Positions 2,164 through 16,869 of a DNA stretch of 23,522 nt are shown here, piece after piece. The stretch is from a virus: IMG/VR virus record IMGVR_UViG_3300017963_000754, positions 1-23,522 of that record; one strand, 5' to 3'. Position 1 is the first letter of the stretch. Each line of letters begins with the position of its first letter. Under the pieces are notes generated by a model. The model was given only the letters and a program-made list of their open reading frames with translations. It ran no database searches and was not told where the DNA came from. The position numbers were made by a program, and so were the translations under genes.

Positions 2164-3794
2164 CAGCCAGCGCAGCAGCATTAAAGACGCTCGAAGACGG
2201 CGACCCATCGGTGATGATGTCGGTCGACCCCTGGAGTTGGTGCTACTATAACAAACTGCGCCTGGCCGGCGGCCGCTATCAGGTTTTCGGCCATGAGTTT
2301 CAGCGCGATGTTCTGCAATCGACCTACCGGCGCCAATGCGCTAAAAAGTCCCCCCAAATGTTCGGCCTGACCGAGATTATGGTTATCCGCGCATTACACG
2401 GCATGAGATACGGCCACTATCCTCAAGGCGTTTTGTATTTGTTCCCCACCGATGATGAGGTTGGTGATTTTTCAAAGTCAAGGTTTAAGCCGTTTTTATC
2501 TAATAACCGCGATGCCATAGGACGTTATGTACGCGAGACCGATACGGCATCGGTCAAGCGCGTCGGCAATGCGTTTTTGTTTTTCCGCGGTGCGCGGCTC
2601 AAAGACATCGAGGGCTCTCAAAAATCATCCTCAAAGCTAAAAGCCTTGCCAGTGGACGCGCTTGTTGGTGATGAGGTCGACGAGATGGATCCCGGGGCAA
2701 TCGATTTGGCCAAGGGCCGGATGGACCATTCACTGGTCAAAGACGAGTTTTATCTGGCCAACCCGACGGTTCCCGACTACGGCATCGACAAGATGTACCA
2801 GGACAGCGATCAGCGGATTTGGATGATCGAGTGCCCGGCCTGCGGCCGCGAAAACAACCTCGAACTGCAGTTTCCGAATTGCCTGCGCCGGTTGAAGGAT
2901 CGTTCCGTTATCCGGGTGTGCCGCAAGTGTGGCGGTGAGCTCAACCCTCGGTTTGGCTACTGGGTCGCCCAGTTTCCGGATAAGAGCGATGATATGGTCG
3001 GGTGGTGGATTAGCCATCTCAATTCGATGTATACCGATCCCAAAGATATCCTCGAAGAATACGAAAGCCCGGATACCGATATGGTGCGATTTTATAACCG
3101 GCGCCTGGGTATGGCATACATCAAGGCCGAAGACCGGCTGACCAAAAACGATGTGTATAATTGCTGCGGACCAGATGCGATGTCGCTGCGAGACAGCGGG
3201 CCGTGTTGCGCCGGTGCTGATGTCGGTGGCCGTGAGCTGCACGTGTTGATTGCCCGGAAAATCCACGATGTCGGGCTGAAGATTGTCAAGATAGCCCGGG
3301 TGCCGGGTTTTCCGGATTTGTGGGATTTGTGCCAGCAGTTTAACGTCAGATCGATTGTGATGGATTTAAAACCCGAAATCCATAGTGTCCGCGAGTTTTG
3401 CACCAAGGCCCCGTTTAAGGCGTTTGGGTGTGATTACTCCGAGGAGTCCAAGGGCGTTGCAGTCTGGAACGACGGCAACAAGGTCGTGACGGTCAACCGG
3501 ACGGAGATTTTCGAGGCTTCGCACAAACAGATTACAGTTTCCGGCCGGACGGTGATTCCTCGAAAAGACGACGAAGTGGAAGAGTTCGCCAAGCAGATGA
3601 TCGCGGTCGCCAAGGTTTTAGAGGACCGCAAGGCCGGCGGCTCTGTCATCGGCAAGGTTTACCGGTATCGAAAACTGGGTGCGGACCATTACCGCAACGC
3701 ATTGAATTATTTGATTTTGGCCGCGCAAAGGGCGCCGGTTGTCACCTCGCGGCTTGCCGGGCCCGTCAAACAGGTTGAATTTTATTATGGGTGA
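2160..3794 (+). CDS. Terminase large subunit, GpA family
   Basis: This 544-residue packaging motor has an N-terminal ATPase and C-terminal nuclease. The GpA-like start (WSWCYYNKLRLAGGRYQVF) is followed by a degenerate Walker A, KKSPQMFGLTE (62-72), with no GKT/S, then a Walker B-like DALVGDEVDEMD (166-177). A CX2C...CX2C zinc site sits at C225, C228, C254 and C257. The RNase H-like nuclease has acidic candidates D354 (AGADVGG), D402 (VMDLKPE) and D509 (GADHYRNAL). Length is somewhat shorter than lambda GpA (641). The start overlaps terS by 4 bases. It docks on the portal, encoded two genes downstream, to pump DNA into the prohead. Confidence 0.92.
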   Translation: MTASAAALKTLEDGDPSVMMSVDPWSWCYYNKLRLAGGRYQVFGHEFQRDVLQSTYRRQCAKKSPQMFGLTEIMVIRALHGMRYGHYPQGVLYLFPTDDEVGDFSKSRFKPFLSNNRDAIGRYVRETDTASVKRVGNAFLFFRGARLKDIEGSQKSSSKLKALPVDALVGDEVDEMDPGAIDLAKGRMDHSLVKDEFYLANPTVPDYGIDKMYQDSDQRIWMIECPACGRENNLELQFPNCLRRLKDRSVIRVCRKCGGELNPRFGYWVAQFPDKSDDMVGWWISHLNSMYTDPKDILEEYESPDTDMVRFYNRRLGMAYIKAEDRLTKNDVYNCCGPDAMSLRDSGPCCAGADVGGRELHVLIARKIHDVGLKIVKIARVPGFPDLWDLCQQFNVRSIVMDLKPEIHSVREFCTKAPFKAFGCDYSEESKGVAVWNDGNKVVTVNRTEIFEASHKQITVSGRTVIPRKDDEVEEFAKQMIAVAKVLEDRKAGGSVIGKVYRYRKLGADHYRNALNYLILAAQRAPVVTSRLAGPVKQVEFYYG

Positions 3795-3798
3795 TCAC

Positions 3799-3963
3799 AT
3801 GGCATCGTTTTGGCAACGAGCGTTTAATATCCTGGTGGTGATATTGGCCTTGTATTTTTTCTGGTTGACAGCCAACTACCGGGCGATGTGGACCATTCAG
3901 CAACGACTCGACGCAGAGCAGAGTGAAGCAATCGTTAATCTCATCCGAAAAACAGGGGTTTGA
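3799..3963 (+). CDS. Small single-pass membrane protein
   Basis: This 54-residue product has one hydrophobic helix (ILVVILALYFFWLTANY, about residues 9-25) and a short soluble tail. ATGs occur at 3787 (8-base overlap with terL) and 3799. The latter is preferred because GGGTGATC lies just upstream. The stop lies immediately before the portal start. The location between terminase and portal is stable in form but gives no function; a virion or membrane accessory protein is possible. Confidence 0.5.
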   Translation: MASFWQRAFNILVVILALYFFWLTANYRAMWTIQQRLDAEQSEAIVNLIRKTGV

Positions 3964-3965
3964 CC

Positions 3966-6053
3966 ATGGAGCAGATCCAGCCATATAACGATACCGCCTC
4001 CAACAGCAAGGGCCTCGTCATGGTCATGAACAACAGTCAGCTTGACCGTTACAACCAGGCCATGCAAAACGCCGATGCCACGCAGGCCCTCCCGTTTGTA
4101 ACCGGGTTGGCTTCCCATGTCTCCAAATGCTGGTCGGCCAACAAGACCGCCAAGCAGCCGATCGAAAGGGTTTTGCTTGAGTGCCTGCGCCAGCGAAACG
4201 GCGAGTATGAGCCACAAGCGTTAGAGCAGCTGCGACAGCAGGGCGAACCCGATCCGATTTTTATGATGATCACAGACATCAAATGCCGCGCAGCGATTGC
4301 CTGGATCAAGGATGTTTTGTTGCCGGCCGGCGAAGTTCCTGCCCATTTCAAGCCCACCCCCATTCCCGACATGCCCCCGGAAATGATGCAACTGGCCAAG
4401 GTCAAAGCCACCGCGGCGTTACAACAACACATGATCGAATCTGGCATCGATATCCGGCAACTCAGCCAGGAGCCCGAGAAAATCAAAGAAATCATGGAGC
4501 AGGTCCGCGATGAAATCAAGCAACTTGTCAACGAAATGGCCACAGAGGACGCCGACAATATGACCCGCGAAGTCAACGATGAGATGGTTGACGGCCTTTG
4601 GTACGAAGCCATGGATAGCTTTATCGATGATTTTGTGACCTACCCATCGGCTTTTCTCGAAGGTCCGGTCAGGAAAAGAAAGAAAAAGATAGCCTGGCGG
4701 CCGGGTCCGGACGGCAAAAGCATGCCGGAGGTCATAACCGATACGATCCAGGAGTATAACTGGATCAGCGCATTTGACGTGTATCCGTCATCTGGCGCCA
4801 AAAGCCTAAATGACGGCAACCTCATTCTCCATAAACGCATGAGCCCGAAAAACCTGCAGCAAATGATTGGCGTGGAAGGATTTGACGAAGAATCGATCAG
4901 AAAGGTTTTGGACCTGTATTCAGTCGGCGGGTTGCGCGAATGGTTATCGGTGGACAGTTCACGAGATTACCTGGAAGACCATCACGCATCGATTTCCGAT
5001 GGCGAACCGCAAATAGACGTCTTAAAGTTTTTCGGCGATGTTCCCGGGAAACTGCTGCGCGAATGGGGCATGGACGAAACGGAGATTCCGGACGAGTCTC
5101 TCAGCTACCCGGCGATTGTCTGGAAAGTCGGTGATTACGTGATATCCGCCCGTATCAACCCGCATCCGCTCGGCAAGAGAAACGTTTATACAGCATCGTT
5201 TATCAAGAAAAACGGTTCGATATGGGGTCGCGGTATTCCGCAAACCATGAAAGACATTCAGCGGATATGCAACTCTGCCGCCCGGGCCTTGCAACGCAAT
5301 ATGGGTATCGCCTCCGGCCCGATGGCCTGGGCTTTAGAAGACAAGATGCACCCCTCCATGGATTTGACGATGTTTCCCTGGAAGATTTTCCGGTTTACAA
5401 CCGAGCAGATGGGCGGATCCGGCCAGCGCAACTTGCCGATGGGATTTTTCCAGCCGCGGGTGATCGTCCGGGAATTGCTTGAAATCTATCAAAAGTTTTA
5501 TGATCAGGCATCCGAAGTGACCGGTATTCCGGCGTATGTTTACGGGTCTGAAAAGATCGGCGGCGCCGGCGAGACCGCTTCCGGCCTCTCGATGCTTATG
5601 AACGCGGCCTCCAAGGGGTTAAGGGCCTCTGTCATCCACATCGACCAGGGCGTTACGAAACCAAGCTGGGAGGAACACTGGCTGACCATCGTTTTATCCG
5701 GTGACGGGCGGTCATTCGGCGATGCCAAGCTGGTGGCCCGCGCTTCCGACTATCTCATGCAAATCGAGCAGCTGCAGGCGGCCTTGGCCGATGCGCTTAG
5801 CCGAACGGCCAACCCGGTTGACATGGAGATCATCGGGCTGGAAGGCAGGGCGGAAATGTTACGCGAATATTTCAAACGGCTAAAAATACCGGTGGACAAG
5901 ATCGTTCCGAACCGCGAATCAATCATCAACAAAAGCGCCAACCAAAAATTTCAGCAACTTGTTACCAACCTGGCCGGCGCCCTTAAAATCGAACCGCAGC
6001 AGTTAATCGCAATGGCGCAAGGAGCGCCGCCCGCGGTGCAGGAGGCCGCATAA
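3966..6053 (+). CDS. Portal protein (P22-like, podovirus type)
   Basis: The 695-residue product is near the length of P22 portal (725). The portal is a dodecameric ring at one capsid vertex through which DNA enters and leaves. Recognisable stretches are GRGIPQTMKDIQRICNSAAR, a conserved helix in this class, and VTGIPAYVYG followed by GAGETASGLSMLMNAASKGL, the portal-core turn and helix. The C-terminus is Gln/Ala-rich and helical, like the barrel of P22-type portals. The start is placed at ATG 3966 with AGGGG upstream rather than at TTG 3960. Its position after terminase and before scaffold and coat fits. The stop shares one base with the next start. Confidence 0.88.
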   Translation: MEQIQPYNDTASNSKGLVMVMNNSQLDRYNQAMQNADATQALPFVTGLASHVSKCWSANKTAKQPIERVLLECLRQRNGEYEPQALEQLRQQGEPDPIFMMITDIKCRAAIAWIKDVLLPAGEVPAHFKPTPIPDMPPEMMQLAKVKATAALQQHMIESGIDIRQLSQEPEKIKEIMEQVRDEIKQLVNEMATEDADNMTREVNDEMVDGLWYEAMDSFIDDFVTYPSAFLEGPVRKRKKKIAWRPGPDGKSMPEVITDTIQEYNWISAFDVYPSSGAKSLNDGNLILHKRMSPKNLQQMIGVEGFDEESIRKVLDLYSVGGLREWLSVDSSRDYLEDHHASISDGEPQIDVLKFFGDVPGKLLREWGMDETEIPDESLSYPAIVWKVGDYVISARINPHPLGKRNVYTASFIKKNGSIWGRGIPQTMKDIQRICNSAARALQRNMGIASGPMAWALEDKMHPSMDLTMFPWKIFRFTTEQMGGSGQRNLPMGFFQPRVIVRELLEIYQKFYDQASEVTGIPAYVYGSEKIGGAGETASGLSMLMNAASKGLRASVIHIDQGVTKPSWEEHWLTIVLSGDGRSFGDAKLVARASDYLMQIEQLQAALADALSRTANPVDMEIIGLEGRAEMLREYFKRLKIPVDKIVPNRESIINKSANQKFQQLVTNLAGALKIEPQQLIAMAQGAPPAVQEAA

Positions 6054-8926: not shown

Positions 8927-10582
8927 ATGGCCTATCCAGTAGCATCTGGTGGAGTGACCAGTATGTCAGGTTCGTATATCCCTAGCCCATAATTTGGGGA
9001 TGTAAAACCACTTCTAAATAACTGGAATCGGACTTAGGGTGCCGAAACCAGAGGGAACGGCTAAAAAACAACACGCGCAGTTCAAGGAAATTGGCCTTAT
9101 GAAGCGTTTAAGTTGGAAATACATAGCTGGTTTAGTAGACGGCGAAGGATGTATAGACGCAGTTTTGAACAAGAGCAGTAGCAAGGCAATGACAAAAACA
9201 ATTATACCAAGAATAAGAATAACGCTCGTTGAGAACTGTTATTTTTTGCTTGATATATTAAAAGTAAACCATGGCGGATGGATAAATAAGCGTCATTTCA
9301 ACAACCCAAAATGGCAAGATCCCATCACATGGACATTGCAAGGAAAAAAGCTCCGCTCTTTTCTGCAAAATATCGCTAACCACTTGACCATCAAGAAACA
9401 GCAGGCATTATTGGCCATCTGGATTCAAGATCATTTAAGACATAAGGGCATGCCGCAATCCGAAGAAGTAAAGCAGGGCGCCATAAAAGAAATGAAGGCT
9501 ATGAAAACCGACCCGCAACGACTAAGCGAAGTGGCGATCCGAAATATTAAAAATCTCCCAGGATTTCATGGGCATTGGTCAGCAACCACAAATCAATGCC
9601 TTGATTGTGGAGAAACATCTCGGAAGCATGAAGCAAGAGGTTTGTGCACAAGGTGTTATAAAAAGTATCAAAGATCGGATCGATGCGATAGTCTGGCCGT
9701 CTAAGATGACGGTGGGAAATATGGTCCCTCAAAACTTTGGTTAAGTTCTACACCGCAACCGTATTCGGCGAAATCGCCAATACGGACTATGAAGGTGAAA
9801 TCCAAAAACACGGCGACAAGGTGCAGATCAGGGTCGTCCCCGATATTACCATTCGGGATTACACTATCGGCCAGAAACTCGTCCGCGAGCGGCCGGCCAC
9901 AACGAAAATCACCCTCGACATCGACAAGGGCAAATATTATTCAATGTCGATCAACATGGTGGAGATGAAGCAAGCCGACATTGCCTATGTCGAAAAGTGG
10001 ACAGACGATGCCGGCGAGCAGCTTAAAATCGCCATTGACTCCAACATCCTGGCAAACGTTTATTCGGATGCCCACGCCTCCAACGCCGGCGCCACTGCCG
10101 GCTATCGGTCAAGTTCCTATAACATGGGAGTTTCCGGCACACCTTACGGTCTGGACAAAACCAATATCTTGGATTTCATCGTTGATATGGGTTCGGTCTT
10201 AGACGAGCAGGACGTTCCTGAGAATGACCGAAAATTGGTGTTGCCGACACTGCTATGCGGTATGATCAAAAAGTCTGATCTTAAAGATGCCTCGCTGACA
10301 GGCGACGCCGTGACTCCTATGCGAAACGGAAGAATCGGTATGCTGGATAGGTTCCAGGTGTTTCGTAGCAACCAAATCGCAACGGCATCAAGCGGCGGCG
10401 AAACGGCCTACGAGATCATTGCCTGCCACAAAAGCGCAATTACGTTTGCAAGCCAGCTGACCGATCAGCGGACCATCCCGAATCCGGATGATTTTGGTGA
10501 TTTGATGGAAGGGCTGCAGGTTTACGGTTACAAAGTAATCAAGACCGAGGCGCTGGTCCATGGGCACGTTTACAAGATGTAA
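8927..10582 (+). CDS. Major capsid (coat) protein, P22-like, split by group I intron: join 8927..8983, 9716..10582
   Basis: The coat protein builds the icosahedral shell. Exon 1 (19 codons) ends SGSYIP; exon 2 begins EIWSLKTLVKFY. Joined, they give the conserved P22-type opening YIPEIWS...VKFYxATVFxxIANTDYEGEI, and a 307-residue product. Without splicing, translation meets TAA at 8991 after a few intron codons. Family features in exon 2 include GDKVQIRVVPDITIRDY, the DIDKGKYYSMSI strand, a long helix with DIAYVEKWTDDAGEQLKIAI, and a C-terminal QVYGYKVIKTEALVHGHVYK. AAAAGGAA lies before ATG 8927. Gene finders would probably report only a TTG-started fragment from 9737. Confidence 0.88.
8984..9715 (+). 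ncRNA. Self-splicing group I intron in the coat gene
   Basis: The core can be drawn by hand. P1: exon AUCCCU (8978-8983) with guide GGGGAU (8996-9001), ending in the required U.G pair at the 5' splice site. P3: CCACTTC (9008-9014) with GAAGTGG (9528-9534). P4: CTGG (9022-9025) with CCAG (9048-9051). P5: TCGG (9028-9031) with CCGA (9042-9045), with AA joints. P6: GGG (9053-9055) with CCC (9512-9514). P6a: CGG (9058-9060) with CCG (9508-9510). P7: GACTA (9520-9524) with TAGTC (9689-9693). P8: CGATCCG (9535-9541) with CGGATCG (9676-9682). P9: GCCGTC (9696-9701) with GACGGT (9708-9713). The last intron base is G9715. A short P10 (GAA with UUU at 8993-8995) is possible. Subgroup was not assigned. 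Confidence 0.92.
9099..9704 (+). CDS. LAGLIDADG homing endonuclease with C4 zinc ribbon
   Basis: This 201-residue intron-encoded endonuclease would cut intronless coat genes and so spread the intron. One LAGLIDADG motif is present (IAGLVDGEG, residues 9-17), so it should act as a homodimer. DNA-contacting strands follow (IIPRIRITLVENCYFLLDIL, WTLQGKKLRSFLQNIA). At the C-terminus C167, C170, C183 and C186 form CX2C-X12-CX2C, an extra DNA-binding zinc ribbon. ATG 9099 with AAGGAAA upstream is preferred; an in-frame GTG at 9039 would lie inside P5. Codons 138 onward double as P6a', P6', P7, P3', P8 and P7', and the TAA lies in the P9 loop. Base use is more AT-rich than neighbouring genes, which fits later arrival. 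Confidence 0.9.
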   Translation: MKRLSWKYIAGLVDGEGCIDAVLNKSSSKAMTKTIIPRIRITLVENCYFLLDILKVNHGGWINKRHFNNPKWQDPITWTLQGKKLRSFLQNIANHLTIKKQQALLAIWIQDHLRHKGMPQSEEVKQGAIKEMKAMKTDPQRLSEVAIRNIKNLPGFHGHWSATTNQCLDCGETSRKHEARGLCTRCYKKYQRSDRCDSLAV

Positions 10583-13048: not shown

Positions 13049-14056
13049 ATGGATTTAAAGTTCACCAATTTTGCGACATCAACGATAGCTGACGTTGGCG
13101 GTATCGGCGCCGGCGATTTAACCGTCAACGTCCAGCCGGGCGACGGCGCATTATTTCCCTCTTTGGCGGCCGGCGAGTATTTTTACGCCACTATGATTAA
13201 GACAACCGGTGCCCGGGAAATCGTAAAGGTCACGGCCAGAGCGACCGATGCTTTAACCATCGTTCGCGCCCAGGATAATACGATCGCCTTGGTATTTGAC
13301 GAGGACGACAAGATAGAGCTTCGGCTAAATTCCGCCGCCTTGGAGGCAATATCCGATTATTTTGTCGGGTTTTATCGGCGGTCATTGTTTACATGGGCCA
13401 GCGTGGACACCATCACGGTTGGCGGAGGCTTATACGAAGTAAGTGGCAAACTTGCCAAAATAACCAGCGAATTGACGACTGTCGCTCACGGCGTTTCAAG
13501 TCCGGATTGGGCATATCTTTACATAGATTATTCCGCAATACCGGCAACCGGTATCTTGACCCAATCAGAATTGATATGGTCCACAACGGAGCCCACTTGG
13601 AGCCATTCAAAAATTGGGTGGTACAATGGCGATGACAGGTGTATTTTTGCCGGGTATGTACCGTCCGCTGATGAATTGGAAGAATTTTGGCATAACGGCG
13701 ATACTGTTTTTATGCCTTATCTTTCGGTTGTGGGGCTAACTTCTTTCGTAACAGCTTTTGCAGCCATATCCACCGGATTTAAAATTCCTTCATTTGCAAA
13801 TATTTGTTATGCGCTCATAGTCTATGATGCCAATGGCGATACTGCGACGAGGGCATACGTTTACCGGCCAACCGGATCGTCGGAAGCGTTCGGGATGGTG
13901 CTTGATTACACCGACGAGGATATCCGGCCGGAGTTTTATTCAAAAGCCAAAATAATCACCGGTACAGATAAAAAAATAGATATCAGATGTGCCGATGGGT
14001 CCACGAGCAGGATACAAATCACTCAATACGGCTACGAATTGCCGAAAGGGATATAA
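13049..14056 (+). CDS. Tail fibre-like protein with virion-anchoring N-terminal domain
   Basis: This 335-residue protein opens with a domain of about 95 residues: FTNFATSTIADVGGIGAGDL, then GDGALFPSLAAGEYFYATMI and REIVKVTARATDALTIVRAQ. This is widespread at the N-terminus of phage tail fibres and appended proteins and attaches them to the tail. The rest is beta-rich (WAYLYIDYSAIPATGIL, RCIFAGYVPSADELEEF) and may reach the host surface. GGAGGGTATTTTTAA precedes ATG 13049, one base after the upstream stop. No hydrolase motif is recognised. Confidence 0.7.
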   Translation: MDLKFTNFATSTIADVGGIGAGDLTVNVQPGDGALFPSLAAGEYFYATMIKTTGAREIVKVTARATDALTIVRAQDNTIALVFDEDDKIELRLNSAALEAISDYFVGFYRRSLFTWASVDTITVGGGLYEVSGKLAKITSELTTVAHGVSSPDWAYLYIDYSAIPATGILTQSELIWSTTEPTWSHSKIGWYNGDDRCIFAGYVPSADELEEFWHNGDTVFMPYLSVVGLTSFVTAFAAISTGFKIPSFANICYALIVYDANGDTATRAYVYRPTGSSEAFGMVLDYTDEDIRPEFYSKAKIITGTDKKIDIRCADGSTSRIQITQYGYELPKGI

Positions 14057-16112: not shown

Positions 16113-16375
16113 GCCTTGGCATAATAGACATACCGGACGCGCCTTCAAGAAGCGGGAGTCATTTTGACCGGGCCGTGAAAGAAAAGCTGGATTCGGCGCA
16201 ACCGGTGAAATTGCCAATTTTTACCACGCAGCAATTAAATTCGCTTACAGCCCGATTGTTTGCAGGCTATATCGTTCGGTGCAGCAACGGTGATGCCGGT
16301 GATGAGTGTATCGCTTATTGCAACGGATTTACCTGGAAAGTGTTACAACTCGGAGACAACATCGCATTGTCATGA
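16109..16375 (+). CDS. Small tail/fibre-associated protein
   Basis: This 88-residue protein has a C-terminal part (KLPIFTTQQLNSLTARLFAG, then IAYCNGFTWKVLQLGDNIAL) resembling the short module at the end of many phage tail fibres, whose general form is LPxFTxxxLP...GxxxxxxDG..W....D..I. Here it is encoded alone after a proline-rich N-terminus. It overlaps its neighbours as ATGA at both ends. It may be a fibre tip or small tail subunit. Confidence 0.55.
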   Translation: MSLGIIDIPDAPSRSGSHFDRAVKEKLDSAQPVKLPIFTTQQLNSLTARLFAGYIVRCSNGDAGDECIAYCNGFTWKVLQLGDNIALS

Positions 16376-16869
16376 TTAAGGTCATACCATACGCGCACCA
16401 TGACGGTATCCCAACCATGAGGGATTCAGAAATCAGAACGCTATACGATCTCATGGAACGTGACGGGACAAACAGCCTTGTATTTTTCGATGGGCACATA
16501 AACAACGCAAATGATTTTTGCAATTTTATGAAATCTTCCGAAAATATTTTATTTGTGGCTTTTGACGATGACGACCCTGTTGCTTTCGGTTGGTTAAGTA
16601 ATTTTAAATATAAAACAGCCCAAGCGCATTTTTGTTTGTTTTCGAAAGTTTGGGGAGAAAGGTCTGTAGAAATCGGCAAAGCGCTAGTAAAAAACGCATT
16701 GGCCACAACCGGTCTTGACATGTTGATCGGATATGTTCCTGGGTTTAATCCGGTGGCGACAAAATTTGCCGTCAAATGTGGTGCTGTTAAACTGGGTAAA
16801 TTACCCTGTGGCAGTGTAGACAAAAACGGAAATTCTTATTCCACAACGATAGTTTATTATACGAGGTAA
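16372..16869 (+). CDS. GNAT-fold acetyltransferase-like protein in tail cluster
   Basis: This 165-residue protein has the strand-helix order of the GNAT fold: NILFVAFDDDDPVAFGWLSN (beta4-like), VWGERSVEIGKALVKNAL (pyrophosphate-loop helix), then LIGYVPGFNPVATKFAVKCG and AVKLGKLP (beta6 and C-terminal helix, with the N-x-x-A pattern). The acetyl-CoA loop reads WGERS rather than RxxGxG/A, so activity is uncertain. Similar GNATs sit next to tail and ejection genes in podoviruses. A role may be modifying virion or host proteins. ATG 16372 overlaps the upstream stop by 4 bases. Confidence 0.7.
   Translation: MIKVIPYAHHDGIPTMRDSEIRTLYDLMERDGTNSLVFFDGHINNANDFCNFMKSSENILFVAFDDDDPVAFGWLSNFKYKTAQAHFCLFSKVWGERSVEIGKALVKNALATTGLDMLIGYVPGFNPVATKFAVKCGAVKLGKLPCGSVDKNGNSYSTTIVYYTR

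Follow-up and report, generated by a model that had tools for sequence, protein, structure and literature searches.

A probable mobile group I intron encoding a LAGLIDADG endonuclease in the major capsid gene of an uncultured phage

Results and Discussion

The major capsid gene in the window, by which is meant the whole 23,522-nt stretch analysed (IMG/VR record IMGVR_UViG_3300017963_000754), appears to be interrupted by a mobile group I intron that carries a homing endonuclease gene (HEG), a reading to which we give a probability of about 95% from sequence comparison. Comparison with relatives establishes the structure of the intron, its insertion site and its membership of a family, and it is identified as a group I intron in a major capsid gene by covariation, by the restored reading frame, and by relatives that have either the identical insertion or an empty site. 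An earlier sequence-only reading of the window was correct in proposing the intron, but incomplete, as it missed the endonuclease open reading frame (ORF) at 9099-9704 and the intron family. These two account for much of what makes the locus interesting.

The interrupted capsid gene

8927-10582, plus strand: major capsid gene, intron-interrupted.
8927-8983, plus strand: exon 1, 19 codons, MAYPVASGGVTSMSGSYIP; homologous N-termini are found in uninterrupted relatives.
8984-9715, plus strand: group I intron, 732 nt, terminal G9715; same insertion in L001-L027 and among 56 distinct introns, with covariation.
9716-10582, plus strand: exon 2, EIWSLKTLVKFY... to the stop; phrog_267 (1.2e-52, spliced protein) and HK97-fold model m41fff05833d7.

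Joining 8983 to 9716 gives MAYPVASGGVTSMSGSYIP^EIWSLKTLVKFY..., a single open frame to the stop at 10582, and of the 307 residues of the spliced capsid, exon 1 encodes 19 and exon 2 the other 288. Relatives without the insert encode ..YTPEIWSGKTLIKFY.. or ..IPEIW.. gap-free across the junction (L028-L030, coats 67-68% identical). The restored frame and the uncut relatives thus agree with the junction 8983^9716 and the length of 732 nt that had been read from the letters alone. The intron ends in G, as had also been proposed (G9715), and a G precedes exon 2 in the relatives.

The endonuclease and the distribution of the family

9099-9704, plus strand: LAGLIDADG homing endonuclease ORF of 201 aa, from an AUG to a UAA in the P9 loop; PF00961, I-CvuI and AlphaFold matches.

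This ORF, to which the intron owes its length of 732 nt, matches LAGLIDADG_1 (PF00961, E 1.6e-5) and I-CvuI (3.5e-5), and a profile of the endonuclease family finds I-CreI, I-CvuI and I-MsoI. The AlphaFold model (pLDDT 86.8) matches the I-CreI/I-CvuI fold (4.9e-9). With a single LAGLIDADG motif that includes the acidic residue, and the I-CreI fold, the protein is of the I-CreI type and is predicted to be a homodimer. Its C-terminal part is zinc-ribbon-like (CxxC..CxxC). This cysteine-pair extension, housed in the P8 loop, is found in the window (9536-9700) and in L057, L062, L064, L065 and L070, and is lacking in most relatives. A promoter search for the HEG found nothing above chance.

In a first IMG/VR scan with the endonuclease protein, 27 loci were found (L001-L027), and all 27 share the position of the insert, at the start of a capsid gene. 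A second round, with a profile, found 154 relatives, the best 80 of which were kept; some contigs are common to both scans. From these, 56 distinct introns were extracted, the window's included, and those of the second round that were read lie within ~10 nt of the same FIPEIW codons. Among 102 capsid loci sampled with capsid queries, two (L146, L147) have the intron at this site; nearly all the rest are uninterrupted there, including eight entries flagged by script that proved uninterrupted on reading, and L184 apparently has an intron further down. Empty sites are found in close relatives. Cellular genomes yielded only 9 distant HEG matches, thus the family looks viral, and isolated phages yielded only partial HEG matches (28-35% identity). 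A HEG-less version was sought in the coat loci with the covariance model R1, which gave only split-half matches to members and one further weak match (15.7 bits), in the second intron of L092.

Two loci carry more than one intron. The capsid gene of L128 (2380-3900) has two tandem introns, apparently with a 3-nt exon between them (GAAATCT^intron^GGT^intron^CTGATGAA, which restores EIWSDE), and both encode LAGLIDADG proteins. In L092 (~3040-4100) a second LAGLIDADG-bearing intron, different from the first, lies ~45 nt further downstream, after KLVEKF.

The predicted endonuclease would cleave the joined FIPEIW codons in co-infecting phages whose capsid genes lack the intron, and repair of the break would copy the intron in. 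The relatedness of HEG and coat conflicts both ways, as expected for a homing element: L102 and L112 are 98% identical in the HEG and 74% in the coat, and L068 and L027 are 41% identical in the HEG and 70% in the coat. Partly vertical descent, however, would account for the overall correlation between HEG and capsid similarity (r = 0.81), and the intron may still splice while its endonuclease no longer homes, being a passenger or kept for interference competition, in which its cutting damages co-infecting phages, as with gp210 of PhiPA3; interference by an intron endonuclease has been demonstrated in another phage (PMC11620839). We regard such a loss of homing as unlikely, as the endonuclease ORF is intact in the relatives read, the LAGLIDADG acidic residue, one Lys and one Gln are all invariant, and the patchy occurrence (2/102 sampled capsid loci) and the conflict of HEG with coat suit movement between phages. 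Interference and homing can also coexist.

Structure and covariation of the ribozyme

8978-9001, plus strand: P1, exon AUCCCU 8978-8983 with GGGGAU 8996-9001; U.G invariant (29/29), two-sided changes at three pairs.
8990-8992, plus strand: in-frame UAA in the P1 loop, at which translation of the unspliced capsid message ends; relatives nearly always have it.
8993-8995, plus strand: P10 5' side UUU, partner exon-2 GAA 9716-9718; 96.6% of cells paired, two-sided changes at two pairs.
9008-9014, plus strand: P3 5' strand CCACUUC, with 3' strand GAAGUGG 9528-9534 within the ORF; complementarity test.
9022-9051, plus strand: P4 (9022-9025/9048-9051) and P5 (9028-9031/9042-9045); 92.7% of cells paired.
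9053-9055, plus strand: P6 5' strand GGG, with 3' strand CCC 9512-9514 within the ORF; compensated in relatives.
9518-9534, plus strand: P7 5' strand (A9518, bulged C9519, GACUA 9520-9524), J7/3 and P3 3' strand; P7 100% and P3 99.5% of cells paired.
9535-9682, plus strand: P8, CGAUCCG 9535-9541 with CGGAUCG 9676-9682, the loop encoding the zinc-ribbon-like C-terminus of the endonuclease (CxxC..CxxC); covariation.
9689-9694, plus strand: P7 3' strand UAGUCU; covariation of the P7 helix.
9696-9713, plus strand: P9 hairpin GCCGUC...GACGGU; covariation, fold z -4.04.

The insert has the P3-P8 and P4-P6 core of a group I intron with the P3/P7 pseudoknot, and all helices pair and covary. A U.G pair stands at the 5' splice site within P1 (29/29), the intron has a terminal G, and P7 has a bulged base and a G-C guanosine-binding pair. 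Covariation was scored on a trimmed core alignment of 29 distinct members with P1, P3-P9 and P10 written in (46 pairs). With a structure chosen from the same sequences and trimming on core anchors, which favours the proposed structure somewhat, 97.5% of cells are paired (78.2 +/- 0.7% when shuffled, <=45.3% with a slid partner), two-sided changes are found at 30/46 pairs (236 two-sided cells, against 61.8 shuffled), and the covariation score is 0.490 (0.138 shuffled, <0.1 slid). The gap to the slid and shuffled controls is so wide that neither the choice of structure nor the trimming alters the conclusion.

P3, P4, P5, P6, P7, P8 and P9 therefore pair as first claimed, and a P10 pairs as well, all with covariation across the 29 distinct relatives, and P1 has the proposed form, with U8983.G8996 at the splice site. 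The further helix P6a (GAAC/GUUC) is rejected, as its pairing is broken in several relatives. P3 is the clearest case of covariation, with 17/20 distinct strand combinations perfectly complementary (shuffle mean 2.4, maximum 8, 10,000 shuffles). In P7, C9519 is bulged, the G9520-C9693 pair is invariant, and the adjacent pair covaries over four types. P8 reads CAAUCCG/CGGAUUG in L057. The GGG/CCC of P6 is compensated in L131 (GAG/CUC), L129 (AGG/CCU) and L027 (GCG/CGU), which places the ORF in the P6 loop. In L102, L103, L105-L107, L109, L112, L113 and L121 the intron is found 10 nt further downstream, after UUUGGU, and both P1 (UUUGGU/GCCAAA) and P10 (CAG/CUG, CUG/CAG) are re-matched to the new exons.

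Rfam RF00028 gave no match to the window, even at E = 10, or to the intron alone, nor, at its gathering threshold, to the family intron in the 16 HEG-bearing relatives scanned. The sequence-only reading had named such a miss as grounds for giving up the intron and, taken literally, this is what was found, but it is outweighed by the comparative evidence. A match to RF00028 is a detection test, not a defining property of group I introns. The model misses the intron because the endonuclease ORF splits the ribozyme core, and since the core is cut in two by ~450 nt the miss is not decisive. The same detection problem, with cores separated by a long HEG loop, is reported for the introns of Bastillevirinae (PMC11878797). 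The absent Rfam match, and the stop within the insert that breaks the capsid frame, would also fit a HEG inserted without a functional ribozyme into what is now a broken capsid gene, perhaps of a decaying prophage. This is very improbable, as it is largely contradicted by a complete group I core that covaries throughout; the boundaries are also identical in tens of contigs with intact capsid exons, and P1 and P10 are re-matched where the insertion site has shifted.

One RF00028 match was found in the scanned set of relatives, a group I intron in the capsid gene of L031 (394-692, 83 bits) that lies at another site, after NTEYEG, and differs from the family intron; the FIPEIW site of L031 is empty. 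L046 and L184 also appear interrupted nearby. An Rfam sR32 match at 13102 in the window (17.9 bits, threshold 40) is regarded as chance.

Shared coding and protection of the core

9084-9098, plus strand: AAGG..CCUU hairpin that covers the Shine-Dalgarno of the endonuclease and directly adjoins AUG 9099; supported at family level.

From its start in the P6 loop, the HEG frame extends across P6 3', P7 5', P3 3', P8 and P7 3' into P9. Protein frame and ribozyme overlap by ~190 nt, and the HEG frame supplies the 3' half of the core: the 3' strands of P3 and P6, the P7 5' strand and both P8 strands lie inside the ORF, which had gone unseen before. The position of the HEG stop varies among the relatives read: some frames close at the end of P8/J8-7, some on the UAG that belongs to P7, and some within P9 or close to it, thus these frames traverse P6 3', P7 5', P3 3' and P8. 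Variable 3' ends were predicted by Edgell and colleagues, who coined the term 'core creep' (PMC3073962).

In the 17 nt 5' of the HEG start codon (40 distinct segments), stems lie directly against the AUG, and the Shine-Dalgarno falls within the loop or close to it. The stems have a mean of 4.3 bp, against 2.5 when shuffled and 2.8 with re-dealt halves (maximum 3.4 in 2,000); the window's own hairpin is weak (-2.6 kcal/mol, z -0.17). In T4 introns such a hairpin bars ribosomes from the core (PMC2988022). Here it probably limits HEG translation and would thereby protect splicing.

From the sequences we infer splicing, cutting and homing, together with roles for the P1 stop and the hairpin. After transcription the RNA would fold around P3-P8 and bind guanosine at P7. 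Cleavage is predicted to follow U8983, the base that P1 holds in the U.G pair, and ligation of the exons at U8983^G9716, with G9715 as the last intron base, would yield an intact capsid mRNA of 307 codons. The in-frame stop in P1 would exclude capsid-translating ribosomes from the core.

Identity of the capsid protein

The spliced protein matches phrog_267 (major head protein, residues 8-300) with 180.5 bits, against 166.6 for exon 2 alone. The coat exons of six divergent intron carriers are also phrog_267 major head proteins (all six tested), and several of these coats share only ~25% identity with the window's capsid. An HK97 fold is supported for the capsid, as its sequence and fold matches are HK97-fold capsids, with mycobacteriophage Che8 gp6 and cyanophage A4 at the top. 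The 'P22-type' affiliation proposed earlier is rejected on Pfam, NCBIfam, sequence and fold matches: there is no match to the P22 coat family with exon 2 in Pfam or with the spliced capsid in NCBIfam, and P22 entries are absent from the best 50 fold matches of the capsid model. Mechanical ORF calling puts the start of exon 2 at TTG 9737, but a capsid translated only from exon 2 (from an internal start near 9737), with the upstream ORF as a separate leader peptide, hardly seems credible, as relatives that lack the insert have a capsid N-terminus homologous to exon 1, and the addition of exon 1 gains 14 bits in the phrog_267 profile.

Elsewhere among the structural genes of the window, 16306-16869 may encode a small acetyltransferase-like protein (weak Pfam match, E 0.21).

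Relationship to known introns

The introns probably form a large and apparently undescribed group I family of uncultured phages that has specialised in HK97-fold capsid genes, at their FIPEIW codons. In this family the HEG frame would be the 3' half of the ribozyme, starting in a covarying hairpin and stopping at several places in P8-P9; one clade would have gained the zinc-ribbon-like domain in the P8 loop, and a move of ~10 nt would have been accompanied by re-matching of P1 and P10. In the open-licence PubMed Central literature, no account was found of the family, of its preferred site or of how far its coding is shared with the ribozyme. Capsid-gene introns (LittleE, Tuc2009) and core-overlapping ORFs are already known; what appears to be new is the family itself.

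Pope et al. 2013 (PMC3706429) used RT-PCR and protein sequencing to show that an intron in the major capsid gene of mycobacteriophage LittleE is spliced. As here, the exon ends in U, the intron ends in G, and an I-CreI-related LAGLIDADG gene is present; however, the LittleE endonuclease gene is on the opposite strand, and the intron type was left as most likely group I (PMC3706429). No LittleE record is found among the isolate-phage matches to the window HEG. A capsid-gene intron of Tuc2009 enters this comparison through its citation in PMC3706429.

The T4 td intron with I-TevI also has its HEG in the P6 loop, the 3' end of the frame inside the core, and the start region in an RNA hairpin, which in T4 limits translation and protects splicing (PMC2988022, PMC3073962), but it encodes a GIY-YIG enzyme, lies in the td gene and has an overlap of only 20 nt. 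In the Synechococcus lividus LSU rDNA intron a LAGLIDADG frame likewise overlaps P6/P7/P3/P8/P9 (Table 1, PMC3073962), although the host gene is an rRNA gene, the ORF is listed as a P8 insertion and the overlap is 81 nt (PMC3073962). I-CreI, I-CvuI and I-MsoI, which share the single-motif LAGLIDADG fold, are the best matches by sequence, profile and structure, and I-CreI is also a group I intron endonuclease (PDB title). The window endonuclease has ~20% identity with them and a different target, and its zinc-ribbon-like C-terminus falls outside the matched region. The introns of Bastillevirinae are also HEG-bearing phage group I introns in which a long loop splits model matches, and there too several are found per gene, with a small internal exon (PMC11878797). 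They differ in interrupting polymerase, terminase and reductase genes, and the word 'capsid' is absent from PMC11878797.

Implications

Few phage proteins are usually made in larger amounts than the capsid protein, thus splicing must be efficient. Gene callers will mis-start capsid genes split by these introns, and the Rfam group I model also misses the family. Two questions can be put to the family, which offers tens of divergent members, empty alleles, shifted sites and tandem introns: how a homing intron follows a conserved protein motif over capsids that are only ~25% identical, and how one stretch of RNA serves as both ribozyme core and protein-coding frame. If the family reading is true, these introns would lend themselves naturally to testing the 'core creep' hypothesis.
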